In this document: positions 2,326 to 23,055 of the stretch, piece after piece
Position numbering within the stretch: the first letter of the stretch is position 1
How the letters are laid out: every line of letters begins with the position of its first letter
Source: Gemmatimonadota bacterium
GTDB taxonomy: Bacteria; Gemmatimonadota; Gemmatimonadetes; Longimicrobiales; Gaopeijiaceae
NCBI GenBank assembly: GCA_022825135.1
Contig: JAJDYN010000012.1
Coordinates: forward strand, 1 to 64,000
Length of the DNA stretch: 64,000 nt
Direction of reading: 5' to 3'
Notes under the pieces: generated by a model
What the model was told of the DNA's origin: nothing
What the model saw: only the letters and a program-made list of their open reading frames with translations
Database searches by the model: none
Made by a program: the position numbers and the translations under genes

Positions 2326-2655
2326 GCCGCGGTAGGACCGTGCAGGAGTGGAGAAGTCGACGTCCCTGACCAGACGCTCCTGCGTCCAGCTGCGGAGCTT
2401 CCGGGCCTCGCGATGCCGTCGTCCGAAGATCGAGGGGGAGACCATTGATGAGCCTATACGGTTCTGTGGATCATGAATCAGCGTTGACGACGATAAGCCG
2501 TATGCGTTGAGTACCTTGCGTGCCCAAGAAGGGGTGATAAGATGGGTCTGTCCATCAGCACGGCAAGCAGGTGCCGCGAGACGAGGCCGAGAACGCTTGG
2601 GAGGCAAGGACATCGGCACAGATCACAGATTCCGACAACTCGCAAACACGCAGAC
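2326..2655. other. Gap before hsdM, no gene seen
   Basis: This 330-base stretch has no ORF with coding character on either strand. A TTGACG at 2484-2489 could be a -35 box for the hsd operon, but there is no convincing -10 at the right spacing. An in-frame ATG at 2542 would extend HsdM by 38 residues with no family similarity and no better ribosome-binding site, so the ATG at 2656 is preferred. Confidence 0.4.
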
Positions 2656-4803
2656 ATGACCACCACGCCCAACCTCAACTGGATTGCCAACTACATCTGG
2701 GGCATCGCAGACGACGTGCTCCGCGACGTCTACGTACGCGGCAAGTACCGGGACGTCATCCTCCCGATGACCGTGCTCCGGCGCCTCGACGCTGTGCTCG
2801 AACCCACCAAGCAGGCCGTCCTCGACACGAAGGCCTGGCTCGACAAGCATGGCATCGTCGAACAGAAGAGGTCGCTACGAGACGCGGCCGGCCAGGCCTT
2901 CTACAACACCTCGAAGTTCACCCTGAAGGATCTCCGTGCCCGAGCCAGCCGGCAGCAACTCAAGGCCGACTTCGAGGACTACCTCGACGGCTTCTCGCCA
3001 AGTGTCAAGGACATCCTTGAGAACTTCGAGTTCCGCAACCAGATCCGGCGATTGACCAAGGGAGACAACGTTCTGTTGGGCTCGCTAATCGATAGGCTCA
3101 CCCGGGAGGACATCAACCTGAGCCCGGATCCGGTGATGAACACCGACGGCACGGTCCGGCACCCTGGGCTCGACAACCACGGCATGGGCACGGTATTCGA
3201 AGAGCTGATCCGTCGCTTCAACGAAGAGAACAACGAGGAGGCGGGCGAGCATTTCACCCCGCGCGACGCCGTCCAGCTGATGGCGAAGCTGGTCTTCCTG
3301 CCCGTAGCCGACCAGATCGAGTCCGGTACTTACCTGCTCTACGATGGCGCCTGCGGGACCGGCGGCATGCTTACCGTGGCCGAGGACGTGTTGCAGCAGA
3401 TCGCGAGGGAGCGGGGCAAGCAGGTGTCCACCCACCTCTTCGGCCAGGAGATCAATGCCGAGACCTACGCGATCTGCAAGGCCGATCTCCTGCTGAAGGG
3501 GGAAGGGGAAGCTGCCGACAACATCGTGGGCGGCCCGGAGCACTCCACTCTTTCCAACGACGCCTTCCCGACGCGCGAGTTTGATTTCATGCTCTCCAAT
3601 CCGCCGTACGGGAAGAGCTGGAAGACCGACCGTGATCGCATGGGTGGCAAGAAGGAGATGCGCGATCACCGGTTCGTGATCGAGCACGCGGGCGATCCCG
3701 AGTACTCTCTGGTTACCCGAGTAACCGATGGCCAGATGCTCTTCCTGGCTAACAAGCTCTCCAAGATGAAGCAGGAGACCAGGCTCGGAAGTCGCATCGC
3801 CGAGATCCACAACGGCAGTTCGCTCTTCACCGGCTCAGCCGGACAGGGCGAGAGCAACATCCGCCGATGGATCATTGAGAACGACTGGCTGGAGGCGATC
3901 GTTGCCCTGCCGCTCAATATGTTCTACAACACCGGCATCGCCACCTACGTCTGGGTCCTCACGAACCGGAAGGCCGAGCACCGGAAGGGCAAGGTGCAGC
4001 TGATCGACGCGACGAAGTGGTTCCGGCCGCTCAGGAAGAACCTGGGGAAGAAAAACTGCGAGCTCGGGGCGAAGGACATCGGGAGGATCTGCCGGACCTT
4101 CCTCGACTTCGAGGAAACTGAGGAGAGCAAGATCTTCGACAACGAGGCGTTCGGGTACTGGAGGGTGACGGTGGAGCGGCCGCTCAGGCTGAAGGTGGAC
4201 TTGTCGCCCAAGCGGTGTGATGCCTTCTTCGAGACGTGCTTTGAGGCCCAGGAGGGGCCGTTGGGGAATGTCGTTGACCGAGTGGCGGAAGCGCTTGGTC
4301 CCGGGCCCCATCTTGATTTCAATGTCTTTCTGGAGGTGGTCAAGGCTGACATGCTCAGTCACCGTTTGAAGCTCACGGCCAAGCGGAAGAAACTCCTCCG
4401 CATGGGGCTCGCGGATCGCGATGAGAGAGCACAGCCGGTGGTCAAGAAGGTCCATCGGCGAGGCGCAGCCGCCGATCCGATTCGAGGCCTCTACGCAGTT
4501 GGCGATGGCTCCCGGAATCGTGTTGTGGAGTACGAACCCGATTCTGAACTGCGGGACACCGAGCAGGTTCCCTTACAGGATCAGGACGGGATCGAGGGGT
4601 TCCTGCGGCGCGAGGTATTGCCGTACACTGACGATGCTTGGTACGTCGCGAAGACCGTGAAGATCGGCTACGAAATCAGCTTCAACCGGTACTTCTATAA
4701 GCCCGAGCCGATGCGGACGCTGGAAGAGATTCGGGCGGATATTCTGGAGGTCGAAAGGGAGTCGGAGGGGTTGCTTGTGGGCATCATAGGTGGACGAAAT
4801 TGA
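2656..4803 (+). CDS. hsdM: Type I restriction-modification system DNA methyltransferase subunit (HsdM)
   Basis: This N6-adenine methyltransferase uses S-adenosylmethionine and pairs with HsdS. The N-terminal helical HsdM_N domain is followed by SAM motif I (DGACGTGGML, about residue 230) and catalytic motif IV (NPPYGKSW, about residue 315). The GQEINAETYAICKADLLLKG stretch is typical of HsdM. At 715 residues it is longer than the classical ~500-residue enzymes because of a C-terminal extension that occurs in many large N-6 DNA methylases. It is the first gene of hsdM-hsdS-hsdR. The start is the ATG at MTTTPNLNWI; an upstream in-frame start at 2542 is less likely. Confidence 0.95.
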   Translation: MTTTPNLNWIANYIWGIADDVLRDVYVRGKYRDVILPMTVLRRLDAVLEPTKQAVLDTKAWLDKHGIVEQKRSLRDAAGQAFYNTSKFTLKDLRARASRQQLKADFEDYLDGFSPSVKDILENFEFRNQIRRLTKGDNVLLGSLIDRLTREDINLSPDPVMNTDGTVRHPGLDNHGMGTVFEELIRRFNEENNEEAGEHFTPRDAVQLMAKLVFLPVADQIESGTYLLYDGACGTGGMLTVAEDVLQQIARERGKQVSTHLFGQEINAETYAICKADLLLKGEGEAADNIVGGPEHSTLSNDAFPTREFDFMLSNPPYGKSWKTDRDRMGGKKEMRDHRFVIEHAGDPEYSLVTRVTDGQMLFLANKLSKMKQETRLGSRIAEIHNGSSLFTGSAGQGESNIRRWIIENDWLEAIVALPLNMFYNTGIATYVWVLTNRKAEHRKGKVQLIDATKWFRPLRKNLGKKNCELGAKDIGRICRTFLDFEETEESKIFDNEAFGYWRVTVERPLRLKVDLSPKRCDAFFETCFEAQEGPLGNVVDRVAEALGPGPHLDFNVFLEVVKADMLSHRLKLTAKRKKLLRMGLADRDERAQPVVKKVHRRGAAADPIRGLYAVGDGSRNRVVEYEPDSELRDTEQVPLQDQDGIEGFLRREVLPYTDDAWYVAKTVKIGYEISFNRYFYKPEPMRTLEEIRADILEVERESEGLLVGIIGGRN

Positions 4804-4833
4804 TTCTCCTTGGACCAACGGGGCCCTGCTGAG

Positions 4834-6252
4834 ATGGCAGATTCGCACGTACCGTGGCTGGGCACCGTGCCCAAACATTGGCGCTTGGTTCGGAGCAAGT
4901 GGCTGTTCACCAAGATGGATCGTCCCGTGAGGTCGAGTGACGAGGTCGTGACCTGCTTTCGCGACGGAACCGTTACTCTTCGCAAGAATCGGCGAGAATT
5001 GGGCTACACGGAGTCCTTGAAGGAGATCGGCTATCAGGGAATCCGCCGTGGTGACTTGGTGATCCACGCGATGGATGCCTTTGCCGGTGCGTGTGGGGTG
5101 TCCGACTCCGATGGGAAGAGTACGCCCGTCTATTCGGTGTGCGCGCCGAAGGACGAGGTGGCCAACTCTCGCTACTACGCGCATTGCGTTCGCGAGATGG
5201 CAAGGAGCCAGTGGATAGTGGCTCTCTCGAGAGGCGTCAGAGAGCGGTCGACCGACTTTCGCTTTGCCACCTTCCGAAACCAACTGGTTCCGGTGCCCCC
5301 CAGTCTGGAACAACGCGCCATCGTCCGCTTCCTTGACTACGCCGATCGGCGCATCCAGCGCTACATCCGCACCAAGGAACGGCTGATCGAGCTGCTGGAG
5401 GAGCAGAGGCGGGCCATCATCCACCAAGCCGTGACGGGCCAGATCGATATCCGAACCGGCCAGCCTTATCCGGCCTACAAGGACTCCGGGGTGAAGTGGT
5501 TGAGGGAGGTGCCGGAGCATTGGAAGATACGAAAGCTCGGGCAGATTGGGTGCTTTTCCAAGGGAAGTGGGGGCAGCAAGGCGGACGAAAGCAAAACGGG
5601 TCTTCAGTGCGTCCGCTATGGAGACCTATACACCCACCACAGCTTCTTCATAGCTGAGAGTAGGGGACGTATCAAGCCAGAAGTGGCTGAGGTGTCGTAC
5701 ACCCCCATTCGGTACGGAGATGTTCTGTTCGCCGGGTCAGGTGAAACCTTGGACGAAATCGGAAAGTCGGCCGTTAATCTTGTGACGAGTTCCGCCTATT
5801 GCGGCGGTGACGTGATCATTTTCCGACCCTCGGTTAAGGTCGACCCTAGGTTCATTGGCTACGCGACCGACTGTCCCTATGCCGTGCACCAGAAAGCCTG
5901 CTTTGGACGGGGGATCACGGTGATGCATATTTACGCGAATGAATTGAAGTACTTGACCATCGTGCTTCCTAACTTGGTCGAACAAGCGGCCATCGGACTC
6001 TTCTTGGACAGAGCCATCGCGACGATAGATCGCGCAATCGCTCGGACGTCAACTGAGATCGAGTTGATCGGGGAGTATCGCACCCGCCTGATCGCGGACG
6101 TCGTCACCGGCAAACTCGACGTCCGTGAGGCGGCCGCTTCACTCCCAAATGTCGATCCCTTCGCAACCGACGAAACCCGCGACAAGGTTGAGCCGAGCAT
6201 CGACGACCATTGGGAAGCACCGCAACCCGTCGCCCACCGCTCGCGCCCATGA
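4834..6252 (+). CDS. hsdS: Type I restriction-modification system specificity subunit (HsdS)
   Basis: HsdS selects the bipartite DNA target for the methylase and endonuclease. Two target-recognition domains are visible. Each begins with the signature of a tryptophan next to a VP-HW turn (VPWLGTVPKHW near the N-terminus, VKWLREVPEHW mid-protein). Each is followed by a conserved helical spacer (FLDYADRRIQRYI and FLDRAIATIDRAIA) and a VTGxxDxR turn. This is the normal two-half layout and there is no sign of truncation. An in-frame TTG at 4810, 7 nt after the hsdM stop, is an alternative start. The stop overlaps the hsdR ATG by 4 nt. Confidence 0.93.
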   Translation: MADSHVPWLGTVPKHWRLVRSKWLFTKMDRPVRSSDEVVTCFRDGTVTLRKNRRELGYTESLKEIGYQGIRRGDLVIHAMDAFAGACGVSDSDGKSTPVYSVCAPKDEVANSRYYAHCVREMARSQWIVALSRGVRERSTDFRFATFRNQLVPVPPSLEQRAIVRFLDYADRRIQRYIRTKERLIELLEEQRRAIIHQAVTGQIDIRTGQPYPAYKDSGVKWLREVPEHWKIRKLGQIGCFSKGSGGSKADESKTGLQCVRYGDLYTHHSFFIAESRGRIKPEVAEVSYTPIRYGDVLFAGSGETLDEIGKSAVNLVTSSAYCGGDVIIFRPSVKVDPRFIGYATDCPYAVHQKACFGRGITVMHIYANELKYLTIVLPNLVEQAAIGLFLDRAIATIDRAIARTSTEIELIGEYRTRLIADVVTGKLDVREAAASLPNVDPFATDETRDKVEPSIDDHWEAPQPVAHRSRP

Positions 6253-9200
6253 CCAGCGACCTCACCGAACGCGGCCTCGAACGTCTCATCTGCAAGGCCC
6301 TCACCGGCGACCCCTGCGATCCACCATCCGGCCGCACCGTCGGCGAACCGCCGCTCGGGTACGGCGTCGGCTGGTCCCCTGGCAACCACCACGACTACAA
6401 CCGCGAGTACTGCGTCGACCTGATCCAGCTCAACACCTTCCTCCAAGTCACCCAGCCCAGCACAGCCCCCGCACTCCGCCTCGACGAGGACTGCCCGACC
6501 CGCCGCAAGTTCCTTGCCCGCCTCCAGGGCGAGATCGCCAAGCGCGGCACCGTCGACGTTCTCCGCAACGGCATCAAACACCAAGCCCACGAACTCGACC
6601 TCTTCTACGGCACGCCCTCGGCCCAGAACGAGACGGCCCAGCAGCGCTTCCGCCAGAACCAGTTCAGTGTCACCCGTCAGCTCCGCTACAGCAGGGATGA
6701 CGCTCAGCGCTCGCTGGACATCGCGCTCTTCATCAACGGGCTCCCCGTCTTCACCTTCGAGCTCAAGAACAGCCTGACGAAGCAGACCTTCAACGACGCC
6801 ATCCTGCAGTACAAGCGGGACCGCAACCCGCGCGAGCCGCTCTTCCAGTTTGGGCGCTGCGTGGCGCACTTCGCGGTCGACGAGAACGAGATCCACTTCT
6901 GCACCCATCTCCGGGGGAAGGCGTCGTGGTTCCTGCCCTTCAACCGGGGCTGGCAGCACGGGGCCGGCAATCCGCCCAACCCGAACGGTCTCCGGTCGGA
7001 GTATCTGTGGCGCGAAGTCCTCACCCGGGAGAGCGTGACCAATATCCTGGAGAACTACGCGCAGGTGTTGGCGTCTAAGAACGCGAAGACCGGCAAGAAA
7101 AAGAGGGTCCAGATCTGGCCGCGGTATCAGCAGCTGGACGTAGTGCGCCGGCTCTTGGAGGATGCTCGCAGTCACGGGGCGGGGAAGCGGTATCTGATCC
7201 AGCACTCGGCCGGGAGCGGCAAGAGCTTCTCGATCGCGTGGCTAGCGCACCAGCTCATCCCGCTTGAGAAGGACGGTAAGACCGTCTTCGACTCGATCAT
7301 CGTCGTCACCGACCGCCGCATCTTGGACAAGCAGATCCGCGACACGATCCGGCAGTACGCTCAGGTGGGGTCGACGGTCGGGCACGCCGAGCGATCGGGC
7401 GACCTGCGGCGGTTCATCACGCAGAGCAAGAAGATCATCATTTCGACGATCCAGAAGTTTCCCTTCATCCTCGACGAGATCGGCAACGAGCAGCGGGGAC
7501 GGACCTTCGCGATCATCATCGACGAGGCGCATTCGAGCCAGGGCGGGAAGGGCAGTGCGGCTGTGGCGAGCGCGTTGGGCGAGGCGGGTGAAGTGGTGGA
7601 GGAGGAGACCTACGAGGACCAGATCAACCGCCTGATGGAGTCGCGCAAGCTGCTACCCAACGCCAGCTACTACGCCTTCACGGCCACGCCGAAGAACAAG
7701 ACGCTGGAGATCTTCGGCGATCCGAATCCGCAGAGCGACGGCACGGTCCGGCATCTTCCGTTCCACAACTACAGCATGAAGCAGGCGATCCAGGAGGGGT
7801 TCATCCTGGACGTGCTCAAGCACTACACGCCGGTCAACAGCTACTACAAGCTCGCCAAGACGGTGGAGGGCGACCCTGAGTTCGACGTCTTGAAGGCCCG
7901 CAAGAAGCTCCGGCGCTACGTCGAGGGGCACAAGCACGCGATCCGGCTGAAAGCCGAGATCATGGTCGACCATTTCCACGACCAAGTCATCGCCCAGCGC
8001 AAGATCGACGGCACGGCGCGGGCGATGGTGGTCACCAACGGGATCAGGCGCGCGATCCAGTACCACCACGCCATCCGCGACTACCTGAAGGAACGCAAGA
8101 GCCCCTACCAGGCGATCGTCGCGTTTTCGGGGGAGAAGGATTACGGCGGGGAAATGGTTACCGAGGCCAGCGTAAACGGCTTTCGGTCGGCCGAGATCGC
8201 CGAGAAATTCCAGCAGGATCCTTACCGCTTCCTCGTCTGTTCCGACAAGTTCCAGACTGGCTACGACGAGCCCCTCCTGCACACCTTGTACGTCGACAAG
8301 CCTCTTTCAGGGGTCAAGGCGGTCCAGGCTCTGTCGCGGCTCAACCGGGCGCACCCGAAGAAGCACGATGTCTTCGTGCTGGACTTCCTGAACGACACGG
8401 ACACCATCACCGAGGCGTTCTCGAGCTATTACCGCACCACGATCTTGGCCGACGAGACCGACCCCAACAAGCTCCACGACCTCCAGGCCGACCTGGACGG
8501 CGCGCACGTGTATTCGCCCGAGCAGGTCAGTAAGTTCGTCAAGCGATACTTGGCCGGCGTGGAGCGCGACCGGCTTGACCCCATTCTCGACCGGTGCGTG
8601 GCCGTCTACATTAAGGAGTTGGACGAAGACAAACAGGTTGCGTTCAAGAGCGGAGCCAAGGCATTCGTGCGCACCTACGCGTTCCTCTCCTCGATCCTCC
8701 CCTACAACAACCAGGGCTGGGAGGAGCGCTCGATCTTCCTGAACTTCCTGATCCCGAAGCTGCCATCGCCGATAGAGGATGATCTGTCGAAGGGCATCCT
8801 TGCGACGATCGACATGGACAGCTATCGGGTCGAGAAGCGCGCGATGCAGAAGATCATCCTGGCGGACGAGGACACGGAGATCGGTCCCGTCCCGACCGGC
8901 CAGCCCGGAGGCATGCGCGAGATCGAGATCGACCGCCTGTCGATGATCATCGCGGACTTCAACAACCAGTTCGGAGGAATCGATTGGCAGGATGCCGACC
9001 GGGTTCACAAGATGATCACGGAGACGATCCCCGCCATGGTGGCGGAGGACACTGCGTTCAAGAATGCACGGAAGAACTCGGACCGCGAAAACGCCCGCAT
9101 CGAGCACGACAGGGCGCTAGGCCGGGTGATGATGGGCATCATGAAGGACGACACGGAGCTGTTCCGCCAGTTCATGGATAACCCGGATTTCAAGCGGTGG

Positions 9201-9266
9201 CTGGGGGGTGTGGTGTTTGAGGTGGCGTATGAGGGGGTGGGGTCACGACACAGCCAGCGCGGATAA
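6249..9266 (+). CDS. hsdR: Type I restriction endonuclease subunit R (HsdR)
   Basis: This is the ATP-dependent translocase and nuclease of the type I complex, 1005 residues, which is normal for the family. The N-terminal PD-(D/E)xK nuclease shows D...FELKN (Glu and Lys near residues 171-173). Superfamily 2 helicase motifs follow: Walker A SAGSGKS near residue 320 and DEAH near residue 425, then a FTATPKNK motif III and QTGYDEP further on. The ATG is fused to the hsdS stop (ATGA), which indicates translational coupling; an upstream in-frame TTG at 6210 is less likely. The gene looks intact. Confidence 0.95.
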   Translation: MTSDLTERGLERLICKALTGDPCDPPSGRTVGEPPLGYGVGWSPGNHHDYNREYCVDLIQLNTFLQVTQPSTAPALRLDEDCPTRRKFLARLQGEIAKRGTVDVLRNGIKHQAHELDLFYGTPSAQNETAQQRFRQNQFSVTRQLRYSRDDAQRSLDIALFINGLPVFTFELKNSLTKQTFNDAILQYKRDRNPREPLFQFGRCVAHFAVDENEIHFCTHLRGKASWFLPFNRGWQHGAGNPPNPNGLRSEYLWREVLTRESVTNILENYAQVLASKNAKTGKKKRVQIWPRYQQLDVVRRLLEDARSHGAGKRYLIQHSAGSGKSFSIAWLAHQLIPLEKDGKTVFDSIIVVTDRRILDKQIRDTIRQYAQVGSTVGHAERSGDLRRFITQSKKIIISTIQKFPFILDEIGNEQRGRTFAIIIDEAHSSQGGKGSAAVASALGEAGEVVEEETYEDQINRLMESRKLLPNASYYAFTATPKNKTLEIFGDPNPQSDGTVRHLPFHNYSMKQAIQEGFILDVLKHYTPVNSYYKLAKTVEGDPEFDVLKARKKLRRYVEGHKHAIRLKAEIMVDHFHDQVIAQRKIDGTARAMVVTNGIRRAIQYHHAIRDYLKERKSPYQAIVAFSGEKDYGGEMVTEASVNGFRSAEIAEKFQQDPYRFLVCSDKFQTGYDEPLLHTLYVDKPLSGVKAVQALSRLNRAHPKKHDVFVLDFLNDTDTITEAFSSYYRTTILADETDPNKLHDLQADLDGAHVYSPEQVSKFVKRYLAGVERDRLDPILDRCVAVYIKELDEDKQVAFKSGAKAFVRTYAFLSSILPYNNQGWEERSIFLNFLIPKLPSPIEDDLSKGILATIDMDSYRVEKRAMQKIILADEDTEIGPVPTGQPGGMREIEIDRLSMIIADFNNQFGGIDWQDADRVHKMITETIPAMVAEDTAFKNARKNSDRENARIEHDRALGRVMMGIMKDDTELFRQFMDNPDFKRWLGGVVFEVAYEGVGSRHSQRG

Positions 9267-9357: not shown

Positions 9358-10602
9358 TTGAGACCCAAGGCAATTGCCGTTCGGAAGCTTGCAAGAGACG
9401 CTGGCGTAGATGTCGATACGGTCCTTCTCGCAACTTGGGATTTCGTGCATGTCGATGACCGCGCACTCCAGGTACTTGACAGCAACGATAAGATCCCGCC
9501 TACTCTCGTTAATCGGGTGCGCAAGTCACTCGGCGTCGCTACGCGGCGTGAACTACAAAGCGTCAAGTATTGGCACATGCTTTTCGGATTAAGTAGAAAT
9601 GAGTTTGAAAGGCTGCTTTCGGGTGAGGGCTACCCCATAGGCCCAAAGCAACATAAGCTGCCACCCGGAGCAAGCAAGTTCCTTGTGACTCTGGCTCGTA
9701 AACGAAACATCGACCCGCTAACCGGAGCGATCAGTCCGCCTCCCTCTCCAAGACCGGAGTCTTCTCAAATCCGTAATGAAGAGATCCCTCCTCCTCCTCC
9801 TTCATTCGAGCACCTCGGAAGACATCGCGATCTTCGATGGCTTACGGTTGACGAAGTGCTCAGGATCCACGACGCTCTTGTCGATGATTTTGCTCGAACG
9901 CACGATCCGATTGAACCTCCAGGAACAAGGAACGACCACCTTATCGAATCTGCAGTATTCCGACCACAGACTGGTCTGGACGGAATCTTGAAATATCCCA
10001 CTGTCGAGACCTCGGCTGCCGCACTACTATGTGCATTGATTCAGGACCATCCGTTTCACAATGGAAATAAACGCACTGCTTTGGTATCCACATTGGTATT
10101 CCTTGACGAAAACGGCCTCGTGCTCACCTGTAGCGAAGACGAACTGTTCCGTTTCGTCCTCTTGGTAGCAAAACACAAGGTCACAAGACATCGTCGTCAT
10201 TATTATGCGGACTATGAGACTATGGCCGTCGCGGAACAAATCTACAAATGGTCTCGTGTCGTCACCAAAGCAGAACGCCCGACGACATTCTTGAAACTGC
10301 GTGCAATTCTGGAAGGATACGGATGTGCGATTAATATCAGGAGTGGTCGAGCGTTCATTGTCCGTGAAGCGCCACAACGTCCGCGGAAATTCTTTTTCTG
10401 GCGACGGTTGCGTACTCACGTATACTACCGTAATGACGGGACAGATGTACCTCCAGAGACTGTGAAGAAGATACGCAAAGATCTACAATTGGATCATGAA
10501 CATGGGTACGACGAAAGTGATTTCTATAACAAAAAGCCGTTGCGAATTGATGGGTTTATCGCAAAATATAGGAAGACGTTGGTGCGGCTGGCGAAGCTGT
10601 AG
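9358..10602 (+). CDS. Fic/Doc-family protein with N- and C-terminal extra domains
   Basis: The central domain carries the Fic/Doc motif HPFHNGNKR (about residues 231-239), the catalytic loop used for AMP or phosphate transfer to protein targets. The spacing of upstream helices resembles death-on-curing toxins. The N-terminal ~70 residues (VRKLARDAGVDVDTVL...) resemble the small helical IF2-N-type module. The C-terminal ~100 residues are basic and not recognised; they might be a small RNA-binding fold. The start is TTG with GGAG 8 nt upstream. The gene follows hsdR by 91 nt in an AT-richer stretch, suggesting a separately acquired RM-associated accessory. No canonical inhibitory S/TxxxEG helix was identified. 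Confidence 0.75.
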   Translation: MRPKAIAVRKLARDAGVDVDTVLLATWDFVHVDDRALQVLDSNDKIPPTLVNRVRKSLGVATRRELQSVKYWHMLFGLSRNEFERLLSGEGYPIGPKQHKLPPGASKFLVTLARKRNIDPLTGAISPPPSPRPESSQIRNEEIPPPPPSFEHLGRHRDLRWLTVDEVLRIHDALVDDFARTHDPIEPPGTRNDHLIESAVFRPQTGLDGILKYPTVETSAAALLCALIQDHPFHNGNKRTALVSTLVFLDENGLVLTCSEDELFRFVLLVAKHKVTRHRRHYYADYETMAVAEQIYKWSRVVTKAERPTTFLKLRAILEGYGCAINIRSGRAFIVREAPQRPRKFFFWRRLRTHVYYRNDGTDVPPETVKKIRKDLQLDHEHGYDESDFYNKKPLRIDGFIAKYRKTLVRLAKL

Positions 10603-10721: not shown

Positions 10722-11772
10722 TGTCGTAGAACAGTAATCACCTGACAGGTTGGCCCGAGAGGGACGGTGGCCAGACCGGCCTCACGCGAGGTTGATTGAG
10801 AAGAGGTTCAAGTCAACTCAACAACCACGGAGGAGAACCAGAATGACCACCGCCCTGGCAGAGGAAGATAGCGCGCAAGAAGCTGTCCGTGCTATAGCTG
10901 GCCCAGGAACTCGGCGACGTCTCGAAGGCGTGCCGGATCGTGGGCTACAGCCGACAGCACTTCTACGAGGTCCGCCGCAACTTCCAAATCCACGGCGTCG
11001 AGGAGCTCCTCGACGGGTTGCCCGGCACGAAGAGGGCTGCATCCAAACCGGGTTGCACCACCGATCGAGAAGGCCATCCTGGCCCACGCGCTCAAGCATC
11101 CGACCCACGGCGCCCAGTGGGTGGCCGACGAGCCGATGCTCAGAGGACTCCAGGTCAGTTCGGGCGGGGTGCAGGGGTGTGGATCCGCGACGGCATCAAG
11201 GGCGTCGGCAGGACCTACATTCCGACCGTGCTCGACTGCTTCAGGCACCACGTCTGGGCCCGGCTCCACACGAGCAAGATGCCGGTCACGACCGTCCAAA
11301 CCCTGACCAACCACGGTGCTGCCCTCCTTCGAAAAGCACGGCGTCCATGTCCGGACCATCCTGAGTGACGACGGGCGGGAGTACTGCGGCTGGCCGGACA
11401 AGCACCGCTACGAGCACTTCCTGCAGCTTGGAGGACATCGAGCACCGAACCACCAAGATGGGACGCCCCAGTCGAACGGCTGCATCAAGCGGTACCACCG
11501 CACCCTTCTCGAAGAACATCTCCGGATCAAGGGGCGGACGACTTAGGTACGAGACCGTCGAGGAGATGCAGAAGGAGCTGGACGCCTAATCTTGAGACCT
11601 ACAAACCAGCCGCGACCACACCGCCGCCGCAGATCCTCGCCCTACGCCGTCTTCAAGCCCGAGATCGCCCGGAAGCGCACCCGCAGACCCTCGGCCAAGA
11701 AGGAGGTGAAGAAGGCAGCTAAGGACGTGACCTCGGTGAAGCCGGGTGTCAGGTGATTACCGCACTTGTAAG
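10722..11772 (+). mobile_element. Decayed IS481-family insertion sequence (copy 1)
   Basis: The element is about 1.05 kb and homologous to the intact copy at 14150-15383, in the opposite orientation. Both ends are recognisable: a left end TGTCGTAGAACA followed by the 14-base core GTAATCACCTGACA, and the complement of the core at 11747-11760 near the right end. It is shorter than the intact copy because about 160 bp inside the transposase gene is deleted. It is flanked by its own 7-bp direct repeats, so it inserted independently and then decayed in place. Confidence 0.85.
10843..11722 (+). pseudogene. IS481-family transposase pseudogene
   Basis: Aligned with the intact transposase of copy 2, the reading frame breaks within the first ~10 codons by an inserted base. 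It resumes in another frame (SRQHFYEVRRNFQIHGVEEL) and loses ~53 codons between GLK and GVGKVYIQTVLDC, including the region of the first catalytic Asp. Further frame changes follow, including a stop in the GRTT region. The DNA remains highly similar to the intact copy, so the decay is fairly recent. It cannot encode an active transposase. Confidence 0.9.
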
Positions 11773-11829: not shown

Positions 11830-12405
11830 CTATACTGTCGACGTGTCACCGTTCGGTTTTTCGTCCTTCCTTCCGGTTGCCTTCTCGCGGTCCTTCTTTG
11901 ACAGTGCCGGATCATGGCGAGCAAGGATGTCCGCTACCCGTCCCGCATGTCTCGCGCGCAGCTCTGGCCAAGATACATCATTACCGCCCATGTCCCCATC
12001 CAGCATCTTTGTTATAGGATCTTGGACTTCAAACGTTTCTCGTTGGAGTTCATCCGCACAGGGCCCAAGTGGCAGGACGCGGATCTGTCTCATCTCTGCG
12101 ATCGCTGCCCGATAGGCAAGCGCAATACGATTAAACTCCGTTAGTAGGCTTTCTGGCTCGTCACTGGCTTTCGCCCTTTCCAAAACGTCTTCCACGCCCT
12201 CGAAAAAACGGCCCCGCGCTGCCAATACCCGTTCCAAGCCCACTCTACGGTAAACTTCAGATCGGCGTTCGGCTCTCCAAAACTTCTGCATTTGACGCAC
12301 GGCAACCAAAGAACATATCGCCGCTATCGCCGCCGCTCCGGTTGCTATCATTTCTGACATCTGCGTGATCCACGCTGACGAGCACTCGTTCACGGCCATT
12401 CCCAT
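11830..12405 (-). CDS. Single-pass membrane-anchored protein of the ATPase/STAS cassette
   Basis: This 191-residue protein has one N-terminal transmembrane helix (about residues 17-37, MIATGAAAIAAICSLVAV), then a charged helical cytoplasmic part (QKFWRAERRSEVYRR..., VEDVLERAKASDEPESLL) and a basic tail. No enzymatic motif was seen. Its ATG abuts the stop of the STAS-like gene (TGAATG), so it is translationally coupled and the last gene of a three-gene minus-strand operon. The layout would suit a membrane partner or effector, but that is inference. The region is clearly less GC-rich than the core genome. Confidence 0.7.
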   Translation of the reverse strand: MGMAVNECSSAWITQMSEMIATGAAAIAAICSLVAVRQMQKFWRAERRSEVYRRVGLERVLAARGRFFEGVEDVLERAKASDEPESLLTEFNRIALAYRAAIAEMRQIRVLPLGPCADELQRETFEVQDPITKMLDGDMGGNDVSWPELRARHAGRVADILARHDPALSKKDREKATGRKDEKPNGDTSTV

Positions 12406-12735
12406 TCACCACAGCGGATTATCTGTGCTAAGAGCTTCTCGAACGCCGTCCGCTATCACGGCCTTCGCGTCCCAGCCCTGAAATGAGTACAACTTCATGA
12501 ATCCTTCTTCCCCGTGCTTTCGGATAGAATCACCGAACATCGCCAAGAAAAAGGAGGGTGTTACAGAATATGTTCCTTTGGGGATATTGATCACGACGGG
12601 CTGTTTCCGAGCATCTGCTTGATCAAGCTTTTCCGCAACCCGACAACTCTTGCCACGGTCGCGGCCCACAAATACACGCGATCGTTTGCTCTGGTATTTA
12701 CCGAGATTAATTATGAGTGGTGCTTCTTGAGACAC
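12406..12735 (-). CDS. STAS-like (DUF4325-type) protein
   Basis: This 109-residue protein matches the pattern of STAS-like DUF4325 domains: a hydrophobic strand (PVVINIPKG), a SVTPSFF turn with the conserved Ser-Phe at about residues 61-62, and a following amphipathic helix (LAMFGDSIRKHG). STAS domains act as non-catalytic partners of GHKL kinases, as in anti-anti-sigma factors. The GTG start lies 29 nt inside the 3' end of the upstream ATPase gene and the stop touches the next ATG, so the three genes are co-expressed. The DUF4325 assignment is by pattern only. Confidence 0.7.
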   Translation of the reverse strand: MSQEAPLIINLGKYQSKRSRVFVGRDRGKSCRVAEKLDQADARKQPVVINIPKGTYSVTPSFFLAMFGDSIRKHGEEGFMKLYSFQGWDAKAVIADGVREALSTDNPLW

Positions 12736-13972
12736 GGCGAAGATGCTCCTCTTCTAAAGAAAAACGCAACGAAAGCAGTGTTCCCGGGAACCTCCTAGTA
12801 AGATGTCTAACATGCTGTGTATCTGGCGGATAGGTGAGATCGTTTGCTGGATTGAATGCCAAGACTCTGCGTGATCCCGAAGAAGATCGCTTCATCTTGT
12901 ATGTGCCGTCAAACAGAATCTGGGTATGCCCTGACAACAGACACATGGTACCGCTGTCTGCGCTCAAATATTGGAATGTTTCGATCATATCTGCGGTACC
13001 TTGACCTCTATCCCCGATGGTGTCACTACTGGTGTTTTGACACGACACTCGGCCTTGGAGAGCATGTACAGTCCACAGATCATCGCGATAAAATCGTTTT
13101 TGTCTGTGGAATCTCCGGCGTCGGGAGCACTGGTTTATGCAATTGACGATGTGTCTTCTTAACTTGGAATCGCCTGGGAGACTCCGAAGGCTGTCCGCAA
13201 GTGACTGACCGAAACAAAAAATGGTCATCCGACAGTCGCCTCGTCGAGCCTCACGCTGGTAACGGAGATACGCGGCGATCCACCAATCGCTGCGATTGCT
13301 ATGCTGTTCGGCGTTATCGATTACCTCGCCCACGAGCTTAGCAAAATGCTCGCGACCACGGGACGTCAATGCGTGGCCGAACTGCTTTAGGCAACGATCT
13401 ATGTATTGAACTAATGCGGTAGTGCCGACGTCGGCGTTGGCGGTGTGTGGAGACGGGTCAGCACGCTTCTTGCCATGAAACAAATCGAACACCATGAAAT
13501 TGGGACGCGCATCGGACAGTCCTAGCACATGCGGCATGCCGACCGATACTACGATGTCTGTTTGAGTTGGATCTCGAGGAACATAACCTGACAAGCTTTG
13601 GCCGTGTTTTTCGGATGCATGCTTGGCGAGGACGGATGCGACGGCCTCGGCGGCGAGTCCAACAGTTGCGCAATCTCGTTGGTTGACGATGACGCGAGAC
13701 ACTCCAGGATTAAGGGTATGTCCTACCAATTGTGACAAAGCATCAAGCGTGGGTTGAGGATTGTCTATGAACGAAAACGCCGTCGGAAAGACTATTTCCG
13801 GTTGTTTCTTTGCAGACCGGAATTGGATGTTGGTGCCGCCTGCGTAATACCCGAGAACGTCGGTGTGGGCGGACGCGATGAGAGAGACGGACTCCGTTGC
13901 GCGGATGCGCTGAAGTCGATGACGCTCGCGTTTGGCGTGAAGGCGTTTCTGCGCGGCGGAGTCTCGTGGCAC
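12707..13972 (-). CDS. GHKL-type (HATPase) ATP-binding protein
   Basis: This 421-residue protein has a histidine-kinase-like ATPase core. The N-box LVGEVIDNAEQHS is at about residues 213-225 with Glu217 and Asn220. A glycine-containing DRGQGTADMI segment near residue 321 fits the G2 lid, and PGTLLSLRF near residue 396 fits the final GT-strand. There is no phospho-accepting His region or transmembrane segment, so it is not a classic sensor kinase. The N-terminal ~190 residues are unassigned. It heads a coupled operon with a STAS-like and a membrane protein, recalling anti-sigma/partner-switch ATPases, but no sigma factor is nearby. The GTG start is the first in the frame and is uncertain. Confidence 0.75.
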   Translation of the reverse strand: MPRDSAAQKRLHAKRERHRLQRIRATESVSLIASAHTDVLGYYAGGTNIQFRSAKKQPEIVFPTAFSFIDNPQPTLDALSQLVGHTLNPGVSRVIVNQRDCATVGLAAEAVASVLAKHASEKHGQSLSGYVPRDPTQTDIVVSVGMPHVLGLSDARPNFMVFDLFHGKKRADPSPHTANADVGTTALVQYIDRCLKQFGHALTSRGREHFAKLVGEVIDNAEQHSNRSDWWIAAYLRYQREARRGDCRMTIFCFGQSLADSLRSLPGDSKLRRHIVNCINQCSRRRRFHRQKRFYRDDLWTVHALQGRVSCQNTSSDTIGDRGQGTADMIETFQYLSADSGTMCLLSGHTQILFDGTYKMKRSSSGSRRVLAFNPANDLTYPPDTQHVRHLTRRFPGTLLSLRFSLEEEHLRRVSRSTTHN

Positions 13973-14149: not shown

Positions 14150-15383
14150 TGTACAAGTACAGTAATCACCTGACACCCGGCCTCACCGAGGTCAGGTCCT
14201 ACGCTGCTTTCTTCACCTCCTTCCCGGCTGAGGGTTTGCGGGTTCGCTTTCGGGGGATCCCGGACTTGAAGACGTCGTAGGGCGTCCGTCCCTCCATGCC
14301 GCGGCCGCGGTGCGGTCGGCGCCGGTTGTAGGTCTCAAGATACACGTCCAGGTCCTTCTGCATCTCCTCGACGGTCTCGTACCAGGTCGTCCGTCCCTTG
14401 ATCCGGAGATGTTCTTCGAGGAGCGTGCGGTGGAATCGCTCGATGAAGCCGTTGGACTGGGGCCTCCCGACCTTCGTGGTGCGGTGCTCGATGTCCTCCA
14501 GTTGCAGGAAGAGCTCGTAGGGGTGCTTGTCCGGCCGGCCGCAGTACTCGCGCCCGTTGTCGCTCAGGATCGTCCGGATCTTCACGCCGTGCTTCTCGAA
14601 GAAGGGGAGCACATGGTTGTTGAGGATCTGGACGGCGGTCACCGGCATCTTCGAGGTGTAGAGCCGAGCCCAGACGTGGCGGCTGAAGCAGTCGAGCACG
14701 GTCTGGATGTAGACCTTGCCGACGCCCTTGAGCGTGCCCGCGAAGAAGGTGTCCACGGCCACAAGCTCCCCCGTGGCATGGACTTCGATGTGGCGCTCGC
14801 GGAACTCCGGATCGAAGCGCTCGAGCGCCTGGATCTGCTCCTCGGTGAGCTTGATCTTGCGCTTGCGGACCGTCTCCTCCAGCCGCAGCAGCCGCTCGTG
14901 GCGGGTCTTGAGGCCGTTGCGGATCCACACGCCCCGCACCCCGCCCGAACTGACCTGGAGCCCTCTGAGCATCAGTTCGTCGGCCACTCGCTGAGCGCCG
15001 TGGGTCGGGTGCTTGAGTGCGTGGGCCAGGATCGCCTTCTCGATCGGCGGTGCGACGCGGTTCGGGTGCGGCCCCTTCGCGCCGGGCATCCGGTCGAGCA
15101 GCCCCTCGGCGCCGTACACCTGGAAGTTGCGACGGATCTCGTAGAAGTGCTGGCGGCTGTAGCCCAAAATCCGACACGCCTTCGAGACGTTGCCGAGTTC
15201 CTGGGCCAGTTGTAGCAAGGACAGCTTCCTGCGCGCTATCTTCTTTGCCTGGACGGTGGTCATTCTGGTTCTCCTCCGTGTTAGTTGATTGGATTGGACA
15301 CCTTCTCAACTAACCTCGGTGAAGCCGGTCTGGCCACCGTCCTTCTTCAGGCCAACCTGTCAGGTGATTACCGTTCTACAACA
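14150..15383 (-). mobile_element. Intact IS481-family insertion sequence (copy 2)
   Basis: The element is 1234 bp and has imperfect 26-bp terminal inverted repeats. Each begins with TGT, has 12 variable bases, and ends with an identical 14-base core GTAATCACCTGACA. The single transposase ORF is intact, and perfect direct repeats flank the element. It appears potentially active. It points opposite to copy 1, so the two copies bracket the ATPase/STAS cassette. Confidence 0.92.
14199..15263 (-). CDS. IS481-family transposase
   Basis: This 354-residue DDE transposase has an N-terminal helix-turn-helix (LLQLAQELGNVSKACRILGY, then SRQHFYEIRR) that binds the IS ends. The rve integrase core follows: first Asp in VAVDTFFAG, second Asp in TILSDNGREYCG, and the Glu in the FHRTLLEEHLRIKG region. 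A C-terminal TYNRRRPHRGRGMEGRTPYDVF is characteristic of the family. A strong AGGAG lies upstream of the ATG. The gene is complete, unlike the copy in the decayed element. Confidence 0.95.
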   Translation of the reverse strand: MTTVQAKKIARRKLSLLQLAQELGNVSKACRILGYSRQHFYEIRRNFQVYGAEGLLDRMPGAKGPHPNRVAPPIEKAILAHALKHPTHGAQRVADELMLRGLQVSSGGVRGVWIRNGLKTRHERLLRLEETVRKRKIKLTEEQIQALERFDPEFRERHIEVHATGELVAVDTFFAGTLKGVGKVYIQTVLDCFSRHVWARLYTSKMPVTAVQILNNHVLPFFEKHGVKIRTILSDNGREYCGRPDKHPYELFLQLEDIEHRTTKVGRPQSNGFIERFHRTLLEEHLRIKGRTTWYETVEEMQKDLDVYLETYNRRRPHRGRGMEGRTPYDVFKSGIPRKRTRKPSAGKEVKKAA

Positions 15384-21513: not shown

Positions 21514-21594
21514 CTACCTTGCGTGATATGGCAAAATGCTACCGGCGTGCGCGTAGAGCCTTCAGCCGTTCTTAGGTCATTGTTCGAGGTAGGC

Positions 21595-23055
21595 ATGGAT
21601 TCCCGCACAGACGACGACCGGCCGCCGCTGCACCGCGCTGCGGCAGAGGGAGACAGCGAAGCCTTGGCGGCGCTGCTAAAGGAAGGCTCCAGCGCGGATG
21701 CGCGCGACGAAGACGACGTGACACCACTACACCTTGCTGCGAGCCCGGACATCGTTGAGGCTCTGCTGAATGCCGGTGCGGACGTAGACGCGCGGGCATC
21801 GAACGGTCGGACGCCGCTTCATTACGCAATGCTGGAAGGAAATGGTGAGGTTCTGGACGCCTTGCTGGAAGCGGGCGCGGATGTGAACGCGCGTGCCAAT
21901 GAGCGGGAACAGAGGCCCCTTCATCTGGCTGCAGGCACCCCGGACGAGGCGATCACGGCGACTTTGCTCAGGGCGGGAGCCGACGCAGAGGCTCGGGACC
22001 GAGATGGCTTCACGCCCCTGCACCTGGCGGCCAGCCCCGACGTAATCCCTGCCTTGTTGGAAGCTGGCGTGAGCGTCAACGTCCGCACCAAAGACGGCTT
22101 GACGCCGTTGCACGTCACGACCAACCCTGACGTCGTGACGGCCCTCGTGCGGGAGGGGGCGGCGGTCAATGCTCGCATGAGGGATGGCAAGACGCCGCTT
22201 CTTCGGGCGGTCACCCGAGGGAAAGGGGAAATCGTCAATGCCTTGGTCGAGGCCGGAGCGGACGTCACCGCCGCGAGAAAGGACGGTGCTACGGGCCTTC
22301 ATCTGGCGGCGAAGGACGGACAGACCGAGCTTCTCACGCTCCTGCTGGAGGCGGGTGCCGACGCGAATGCCCGTGACAGGATCGGTTGGACGCCCCTGCA
22401 CTACGCCACGGGCTTGGAAGACCAGGACGGCATGATGGCCTTGCTTGACGCCGGAGCGGACGTGAATGCCGGCCGCGACACTCCGCTTCATCTGGCAGCG
22501 TCCATCGGTTCGTCGGAGGACGTGGAGGTATTGCTGGCGGCAGGCGCGGACGTAGACGCCTGGGGTGAAAACGGCGCGACCCCCCTGCACAGGGCGGCAG
22601 CCGAGGGAGACCCTGGCGTCGTGTGTCTGCTTCTGAAGGCGGGCGCGGACGCGAACGCCGAAGACTGGGACGAGAGATCACCATGGGACATCGCCGACGA
22701 GCGTGGCGAGACCGACGATGACTTTCTCCTTTCCGACGGCTATTGGCAGCTGCACAACGCGAGCTTGTCGGGTGGCCGCTTGGACGAGGGCGAAGAGCTG
22801 CTCCCTGACCTGGAGAAAGCGGCTGTGCCCGCGCCCGCCACACCGCCGCCGGAGCGCGCCGAGCGCCGCCGGAGTCGGCTCCAGGCTCGCGTGTCTATGC
22901 GCGCCCCTGCCACGCCCCCGCCAGAGCGCCGACCAGACAAGGAAAAGCCGCGCAGCGGGGGCTGGGGATGGCTGTTGACCGTTGTGGGCGCGATCGTGTC
23001 GCTGTTTCTGGTACTCTTGAGCTGGACGATAGAAGCGAGTGACTCCCGTCGCTGA
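21595..23055 (+). CDS. Ankyrin-repeat protein with C-terminal membrane anchor
   Basis: This 486-residue protein has about 12 consecutive ankyrin repeats (TPLHLAA...ALLxAGADVNAR pattern) filling residues ~10-400. A proline- and arginine-rich linker with two near-identical TPPPER boxes follows, then a single C-terminal transmembrane helix (GWLLTVVGAIVSLFLVLLSW). There is no N-terminal signal peptide, so a tail-anchored cytoplasmic orientation is plausible. Ankyrin arrays mediate protein binding. The ATG at 21595 (MDSRTDDD) is preferred to 21523 because it directly precedes repeat 1. Confidence 0.88.
   Translation: MDSRTDDDRPPLHRAAAEGDSEALAALLKEGSSADARDEDDVTPLHLAASPDIVEALLNAGADVDARASNGRTPLHYAMLEGNGEVLDALLEAGADVNARANEREQRPLHLAAGTPDEAITATLLRAGADAEARDRDGFTPLHLAASPDVIPALLEAGVSVNVRTKDGLTPLHVTTNPDVVTALVREGAAVNARMRDGKTPLLRAVTRGKGEIVNALVEAGADVTAARKDGATGLHLAAKDGQTELLTLLLEAGADANARDRIGWTPLHYATGLEDQDGMMALLDAGADVNAGRDTPLHLAASIGSSEDVEVLLAAGADVDAWGENGATPLHRAAAEGDPGVVCLLLKAGADANAEDWDERSPWDIADERGETDDDFLLSDGYWQLHNASLSGGRLDEGEELLPDLEKAAVPAPATPPPERAERRRSRLQARVSMRAPATPPPERRPDKEKPRSGGWGWLLTVVGAIVSLFLVLLSWTIEASDSRR

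Follow-up and report, generated by a model that had tools for sequence, protein, structure and literature searches.

A mobile GHKL/STAS cassette with a membrane-protein gene as a candidate phage-defence switch

What is the role of a compact operon that joins a GHKL ATPase-like protein, a STAS-like protein and a small membrane protein in the genome of a Gemmatimonadota bacterium? The cassette lies in a 64,000-nucleotide (nt) stretch, here called the window, of a Gaopeijiaceae genome (assembly GCA_022825135.1, contig JAJDYN010000012.1, positions 1 to 64,000). Its three open reading frames (ORFs) share the minus strand and overlap or abut, as the initial annotation of this sequence had described. 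ORF1 (12707-13972; 421 amino acids (aa), GTG start) overlaps ORF2 (12406-12735; 109 aa, GTG start) by 29 nt, and the ATG of ORF3 (11830-12405; 191 aa) begins at the base directly after the ORF2 stop. The RNA fold at the ORF1-ORF2 overlap is no better than those of shuffled sequences. The cassette is genuine, and its conservation extends well outside the window genome. Its best reading, in which we place slightly more belief than doubt, is a mobile phage-defence switch that would release a membrane effector by phosphorylation.

A conserved and co-inherited cassette

Of 59 genomes searched, 4 have ORF1, as do 7 of 395 genomes sampled from the phylum; both counts include the window genome. A single scan of genome contigs gave two relatives, which were the G007 and G119 contigs. 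Seven plasmid records represented five distinct loci, and three scans of IMG/VR returned 4, 11 and 12 loci. Repeats of earlier loci (L032, L033, L036 and a second listing of L024) were dropped, as were L047, L049 and L050, which have the ORF coordinates of L046 and nearly the same scores. The 32 loci kept comprise seven chromosomal loci (the window, L009, L008, L018, L020, L003 and L004), five on plasmids and 20 on IMG/VR contigs.

The initial annotation had proposed co-occurrence of the three genes as a check, and the gene order bears it out. ORF2 lies downstream of ORF1 in all 32 loci. The gap measures between -89 and +12 nt in 31 of them; in the remaining one (L008/L019) it is 508 nt and contains a truncated duplicate of the C-terminal part of ORF1 (G119:C12:62418-62834). 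The product of the third gene has at least one hydrophobic segment in 30/32 loci and is TPR-like in the other two. Profiles run on 22 viral rows, three of which duplicate loci that went into the profiles, recovered ORF2 in 22 and ORF3 in 18; the ORF3s of L037, L038, L039 and L041 were assigned by position and hydrophobic segment only. Aligned homologues share 22-39% identity with the window protein for ORF1, 18-43% for ORF2 and 13-33% for ORF3. Because homologues occur elsewhere in the same order, the cassette is not a chance arrangement. The distance matrices of the three genes also agree (Mantel r 0.80-0.90, a level reached in 0 of 2000 permutations; 27 loci, leaving out L003, L004, L020, L030 and L041). 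Shared descent of whole loci suffices to produce such agreement, and thus the three genes travel together.

Cassette loci are found on prophages, plasmids and chromosomes and span at least three named phyla. Named hosts include Spirosoma (Bacteroidota) and Vibrio, Salinivibrio, Providencia, Pantoea and Escherichia coli (Pseudomonadota). Closer to the window, L008 belongs to a Gemmatimonadaceae metagenome-assembled genome, G119, which is assigned to the window's own class, and L009 comes from the same genus, a placement that conflicts with its database label of Gammaproteobacteria.

Predicted folds and nearest described systems

The ORF1 model comprises an N-terminal basic helix (residues 5-35), a STAS domain (~52-153) and a SpoIIAB/RsbW-like GHKL fold (~158-409) with the Bergerat architecture of the superfamily. 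The domain order follows from the model and the VIA alignment, and a kinase function is predicted. N-termini are basic in 28 of 29 ORF1s. The N-box noted in the initial annotation is present as E216-x3-N220-x3-H224, with the glutamate at 216 rather than 217. N220, H224, G255, G323 and G325 are invariant in all 32 ORF1s and E216 is kept in 31. An ordinary histidine kinase was rejected, in line with the annotation: the model has no dimerisation helix and its best structural matches are the anti-sigma kinases SpoIIAB and RsbW. Sequence searches were less informative. Neither ORF1 nor ORF3 has a convincing family in Pfam or NCBIfam, PDB sequence searches gave no match that we took as a relative, and in PHROGs ORF1 matches phrog_3364 (E 7.4e-12) and ORF2 matches phrog_37359 (E 1e-6), both of unknown function.

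ORF2 had been assigned a DUF4325/STAS-like pattern, and that assignment stands at a modest level. The window protein scores 20.6 bits against PF14213 (DUF4325; E 3.8e-4), below the curated cutoff of 23, and its Spirosoma plasmid homologue (L027) scores 23.1. The ORF2 model contains STAS-like elements only; its structural match is weak, with RsbV, RsbS and SpoIIAA among the best rows. G24, G28 and S61 are invariant (32/32), and Ser61 is the second residue of helix 60-82 in the window model, a position read without superposition. Elsewhere in the same genome (L021:1435-2715, contig C33), a 426-aa protein carries STAS, GHKL and DUF4325 in one chain, a natural fusion of both partner types; it shares the cassette's domain types and differs in its canonical D-x-G-x-G motif.

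Among published systems, VapKSC and CapKS (PMC13373217, 2026) come closest. In CapKS, CapK (helix-turn-helix (HTH)-STAS-GHKL) phosphorylates a conserved serine on the second STAS helix of CapS (STAS-winged HTH) in response to single-stranded DNA, and the C-terminal winged HTH of CapS represses transcription. In VapKSC, a phosphomimetic VapS loses its hold on the PIN toxin; the operon confers protection against phage Bas42. VapKSC resembles the window cassette in its three-gene operon, its STAS-GHKL protein in first place, its STAS protein with an invariant serine in second, the third position of its effector and the location of part of its loci near immune genes. The initial annotation had named no system of this three-part architecture, a statement that now holds only in part; VapKSC supplies the kinase-STAS-effector operon, but its third gene encodes a PIN nuclease and not a membrane protein, and the G1 motif of window ORF1 is degenerate. 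Because the PIN toxin is absent, the window cassette is not VapKSC, although it may work in a similar way.

The proposed single-stranded DNA-binding aromatic residues of the STAS domain, W68 of CapK and F54 of VapK (PMC13373217), have a possible counterpart in ORF1 F66, which lies near the start of the STAS domain. Of the 30 ORF1s with data, 27 have Phe here; the exceptions are L041, with Leu, and the two TPR-type loci, with His and Cys. In sequence spacing, 154 residues separate F66 from the N-box Asn in window ORF1 (152-173 over all ORF1s); the corresponding CapK distance is 150 residues from W68 to N218 by the text of the paper, whose figure legend names Asn145 instead. The SpoIIAB-SpoIIAA and RsbW-RsbV pairs share the folds matched by ORF1 and ORF2. 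Unlike those switches, the cassette has no sigma factor among its three genes, and ORF1 adds a STAS domain and an N-terminal helix. Sigma-factor families gave no match to the three window proteins, a search that did not extend to distant targets.

ORF3 has the single transmembrane helix that had been annotated: one 19-residue window, starting at residue 18, reaches a Kyte-Doolittle mean of at least 1.4. All 30 hydrophobic ORF3s have at least one such segment. No PIN match appeared in the 13 ORF3s scanned with Pfam, and ORF3 matched nothing in PHROGs. Its position, together with the general belief that the transmembrane members of known anti-phage systems serve as effectors (PMC9122126), makes ORF3 a candidate effector. 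It could instead be a sensor or membrane anchor that reports an envelope event such as phage adsorption or DNA entry to ORF1-ORF2, with the output elsewhere. We regard this as unlikely, though it is the strongest of the alternatives. It would suit the 15/30 ORF3s in which two segments pass the same threshold, in many cases separated by a long and possibly periplasmic stretch, and the status of ORF3 as the least conserved of the three genes. Against it, no second gene recurred as a constant output among the loci looked at, and the replacement of ORF3 by a TPR-like protein of ~500 aa in L003 and L004 (a call made by eye) fits an exchangeable effector slot, as in VapKSC. In two genomes of the same order, the TPR-like protein of ~500 aa in the ORF3 slot lies at L006:9494-11005 and L007:6270-7820, followed in L007 by a subtilase-like gene (5087-6205); these readings were made by eye.

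Prophage hotspots, plasmids and the window neighbourhood

The clearest contexts come from E. coli. With the L046 cassette as query, 33 of 5426 genomes matched, 31 of them over at least 80% of the query and AMSCJX04 over 39%. TOE17 was not counted as a carrier: its match is confined to 122 bases at the start and adjoins an IS1, and the cassette is missing. The resulting 32 carriers in 5426 genomes are a lower bound because only two queries were used, and the other, the Pantoea cassette DNA, had no match in these genomes. The E. coli matches listed are annotated only as hypothetical proteins. Five regions, picked to span the identity range and not at random (H9Ecoli, SE11, AMSCJX04, 23CRST027 and S1-CAM-02-A), all place the cassette between the portal and replication endonuclease genes of a P2-like prophage, and in three it is the only annotated cargo of that interval. 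This interval is a hotspot of anti-phage systems (PMC9122126), as confirmed by PMC9519451.

Two other copies follow a second pattern. In L042 and L043 the cassette lies between the cI repressor and the integrase, the arrangement of the Vibrionaceae hotspot of PMC9122126. Elsewhere, the cassette of L044 shares its prophage interval with an adjoining 1121-aa KAP-family NTPase (L044:1899-5264), and that of L018 is near BrxC/D and a helicase. A tblastn search of INPHARED phage records with the ORF1s of L018, L031, L024 and L046 gave no match; the evidence for prophage carriage therefore comes from IMG/VR contigs and E. coli chromosomes.

A three-gene system of the P2 hotspot is already on record. 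Rst_3HP, named in PMC9090908, consists of three genes without a clear domain and protects against P1 (PMC9122126); it is like the cassette in its hotspot and in its three genes lacking clear predicted domains. Identity of the two is possible but not supported. PADLOC-DB 2.0.0, whose 3HP content we infer from the listing of 3HP among PADLOC results in PMC10855318, gave no 3HP match for the three window proteins, two E. coli cassettes, Pantoea ORF1 and ORF3 or L024 ORF1, and only two weak unrelated matches overall.

These positions bear on whether the cassette defends its host or merely maintains its carrier. A prophage or plasmid maintenance or stress module, addictive in the manner of a toxin-antitoxin pair and with no selected role in phage defence, is improbable in our view, somewhat more so than a sensory ORF3. 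Its presence on plasmids, one of them a 6.8-kb Providencia plasmid, would suit such a module, and the P2 hotspot also houses partition genes, in about a fourth of P2-like phages (PMC9122126) and as ParM in 23CRST027. The recurrence of the cassette in two kinds of published defence hotspot, and near BrxC/D, the KAP NTPase and the restriction system of the window, speaks against this account; addiction and defence are, moreover, not mutually exclusive.

In the window itself, the cassette looks like an acquired piece. Its G+C content is 53.1%, whereas 464 overlapping segments of equal length on its right side average 69.0% and have a minimum of 63.3%. It is bracketed, much as in a composite transposon, by two inverted copies of one insertion sequence that are 83-97% complementary in pieces. 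The element is multi-copy in the genus. Its right copy here (14152-15383, minus strand) has an rve transposase ORF at 14199-15263; the left copy (10722-11770, plus strand) is degenerate. Further left lie the defence-type neighbours named in the initial annotation, all on the plus strand. SIR2 (162-1868), the type I restriction subunit HsdR (6210-9266) and Fic (9358-10602; also low in G+C, at 50.4%) hold, and the HsdM-like (2542-4803) and HsdS-like (4810-6252) genes were read from their ORFs by eye only. To the right, positions 21523-23055 encode a 510-aa ankyrin-repeat-like protein with a C-terminal hydrophobic segment, also recognised by eye.

A candidate phospho-switch

How might the three proteins work together? 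On the preferred reading of a phage-defence switch, ORF1, with its STAS domain and SpoIIAB/RsbW-like kinase fold, would be the sensor, and ORF2 the STAS-like partner that keeps the membrane protein ORF3 inactive. By analogy with CapK, single-stranded DNA arising from infection or DNA damage may trigger ORF1, which would then phosphorylate a serine of ORF2, most likely Ser61. Phosphorylated ORF2 would let go, and ORF3 could act on the membrane and stop growth of the infected cell. The initial annotation had likewise proposed a partner switch whose third member is a membrane protein; this fits the modelled folds, the invariant residues, the co-inheritance and the hotspot positions, but the proposal had missed the STAS domain of ORF1 itself and its degenerate G1 motif.

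That motif speaks against an ordinary ATP kinase and is the main doubt about the switch. Window ORF1 has G2-like glycines (G323/G325) and a G1-like F252-C253-F254-G255 in which the adenine-binding Asp of GHKL proteins is replaced, as it is in 31/32 ORF1s (N 25, S 5, C 1, D 1). The D-x-G-x-G pattern of the G1 box is accordingly incomplete: its first Gly is present in 32/32 and its second is T, S or P in 32/32, in a register taken from one alignment, itself weak. Either Asn is enough for ATP, or another nucleotide is bound, or ORF1 is a kinase-inactive nucleotide-binding switch.

A CapK-CapS-like transcriptional regulator of neighbouring defence genes is suggested by the location of the STAS-GHKL and STAS pair close to restriction and further defence genes, which CapKS shares (PMC13373217), but is very improbable. 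CapK carries an HTH at its N-terminus and CapS a winged HTH at its C-terminus, whereas ORF2 spans just 103-141 aa over 32 loci with no winged helix or other DNA-binding domain in the window protein. The window cassette lies on the strand opposite to the restriction genes with an insertion sequence between, and in three of the five E. coli regions the portal-endonuclease interval has no other annotated cargo.

A membrane-protein version of the kinase/STAS pair was not found in the literature searched, and the main text of PMC13373217 uses neither the word transmembrane nor P2-like. Among related reports, DefensePredictor (PMC13092281) names a HATPase among predictions not yet validated, a Shedu protein has a GHKL domain in a different architecture (PMC12137116), and the excerpt of PMC7159879 has no GHKL. 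More speculatively, the cassette may belong to a widely mobile new class of defence systems, in which a GHKL/STAS phospho-switch controls an exchangeable effector slot (membrane, TPR-like, or PIN in VapKSC) and a sensor with G1 Asp changed to Asn/Ser perhaps reads a nucleotide other than ATP, such as a guanine nucleotide, plus nucleic acid. We consider this broader proposal tentative and clearly less probable than the switch itself.

The presence of the cassette in P2-like prophages of E. coli makes it directly testable in laboratory strains. If the phage-defence switch is correct, it would add a membrane effector to the repressors and RNA-cutting toxins governed by the logic of CapKS and VapKSC, and would point to partner-switch signalling as a general control module in phage defence.
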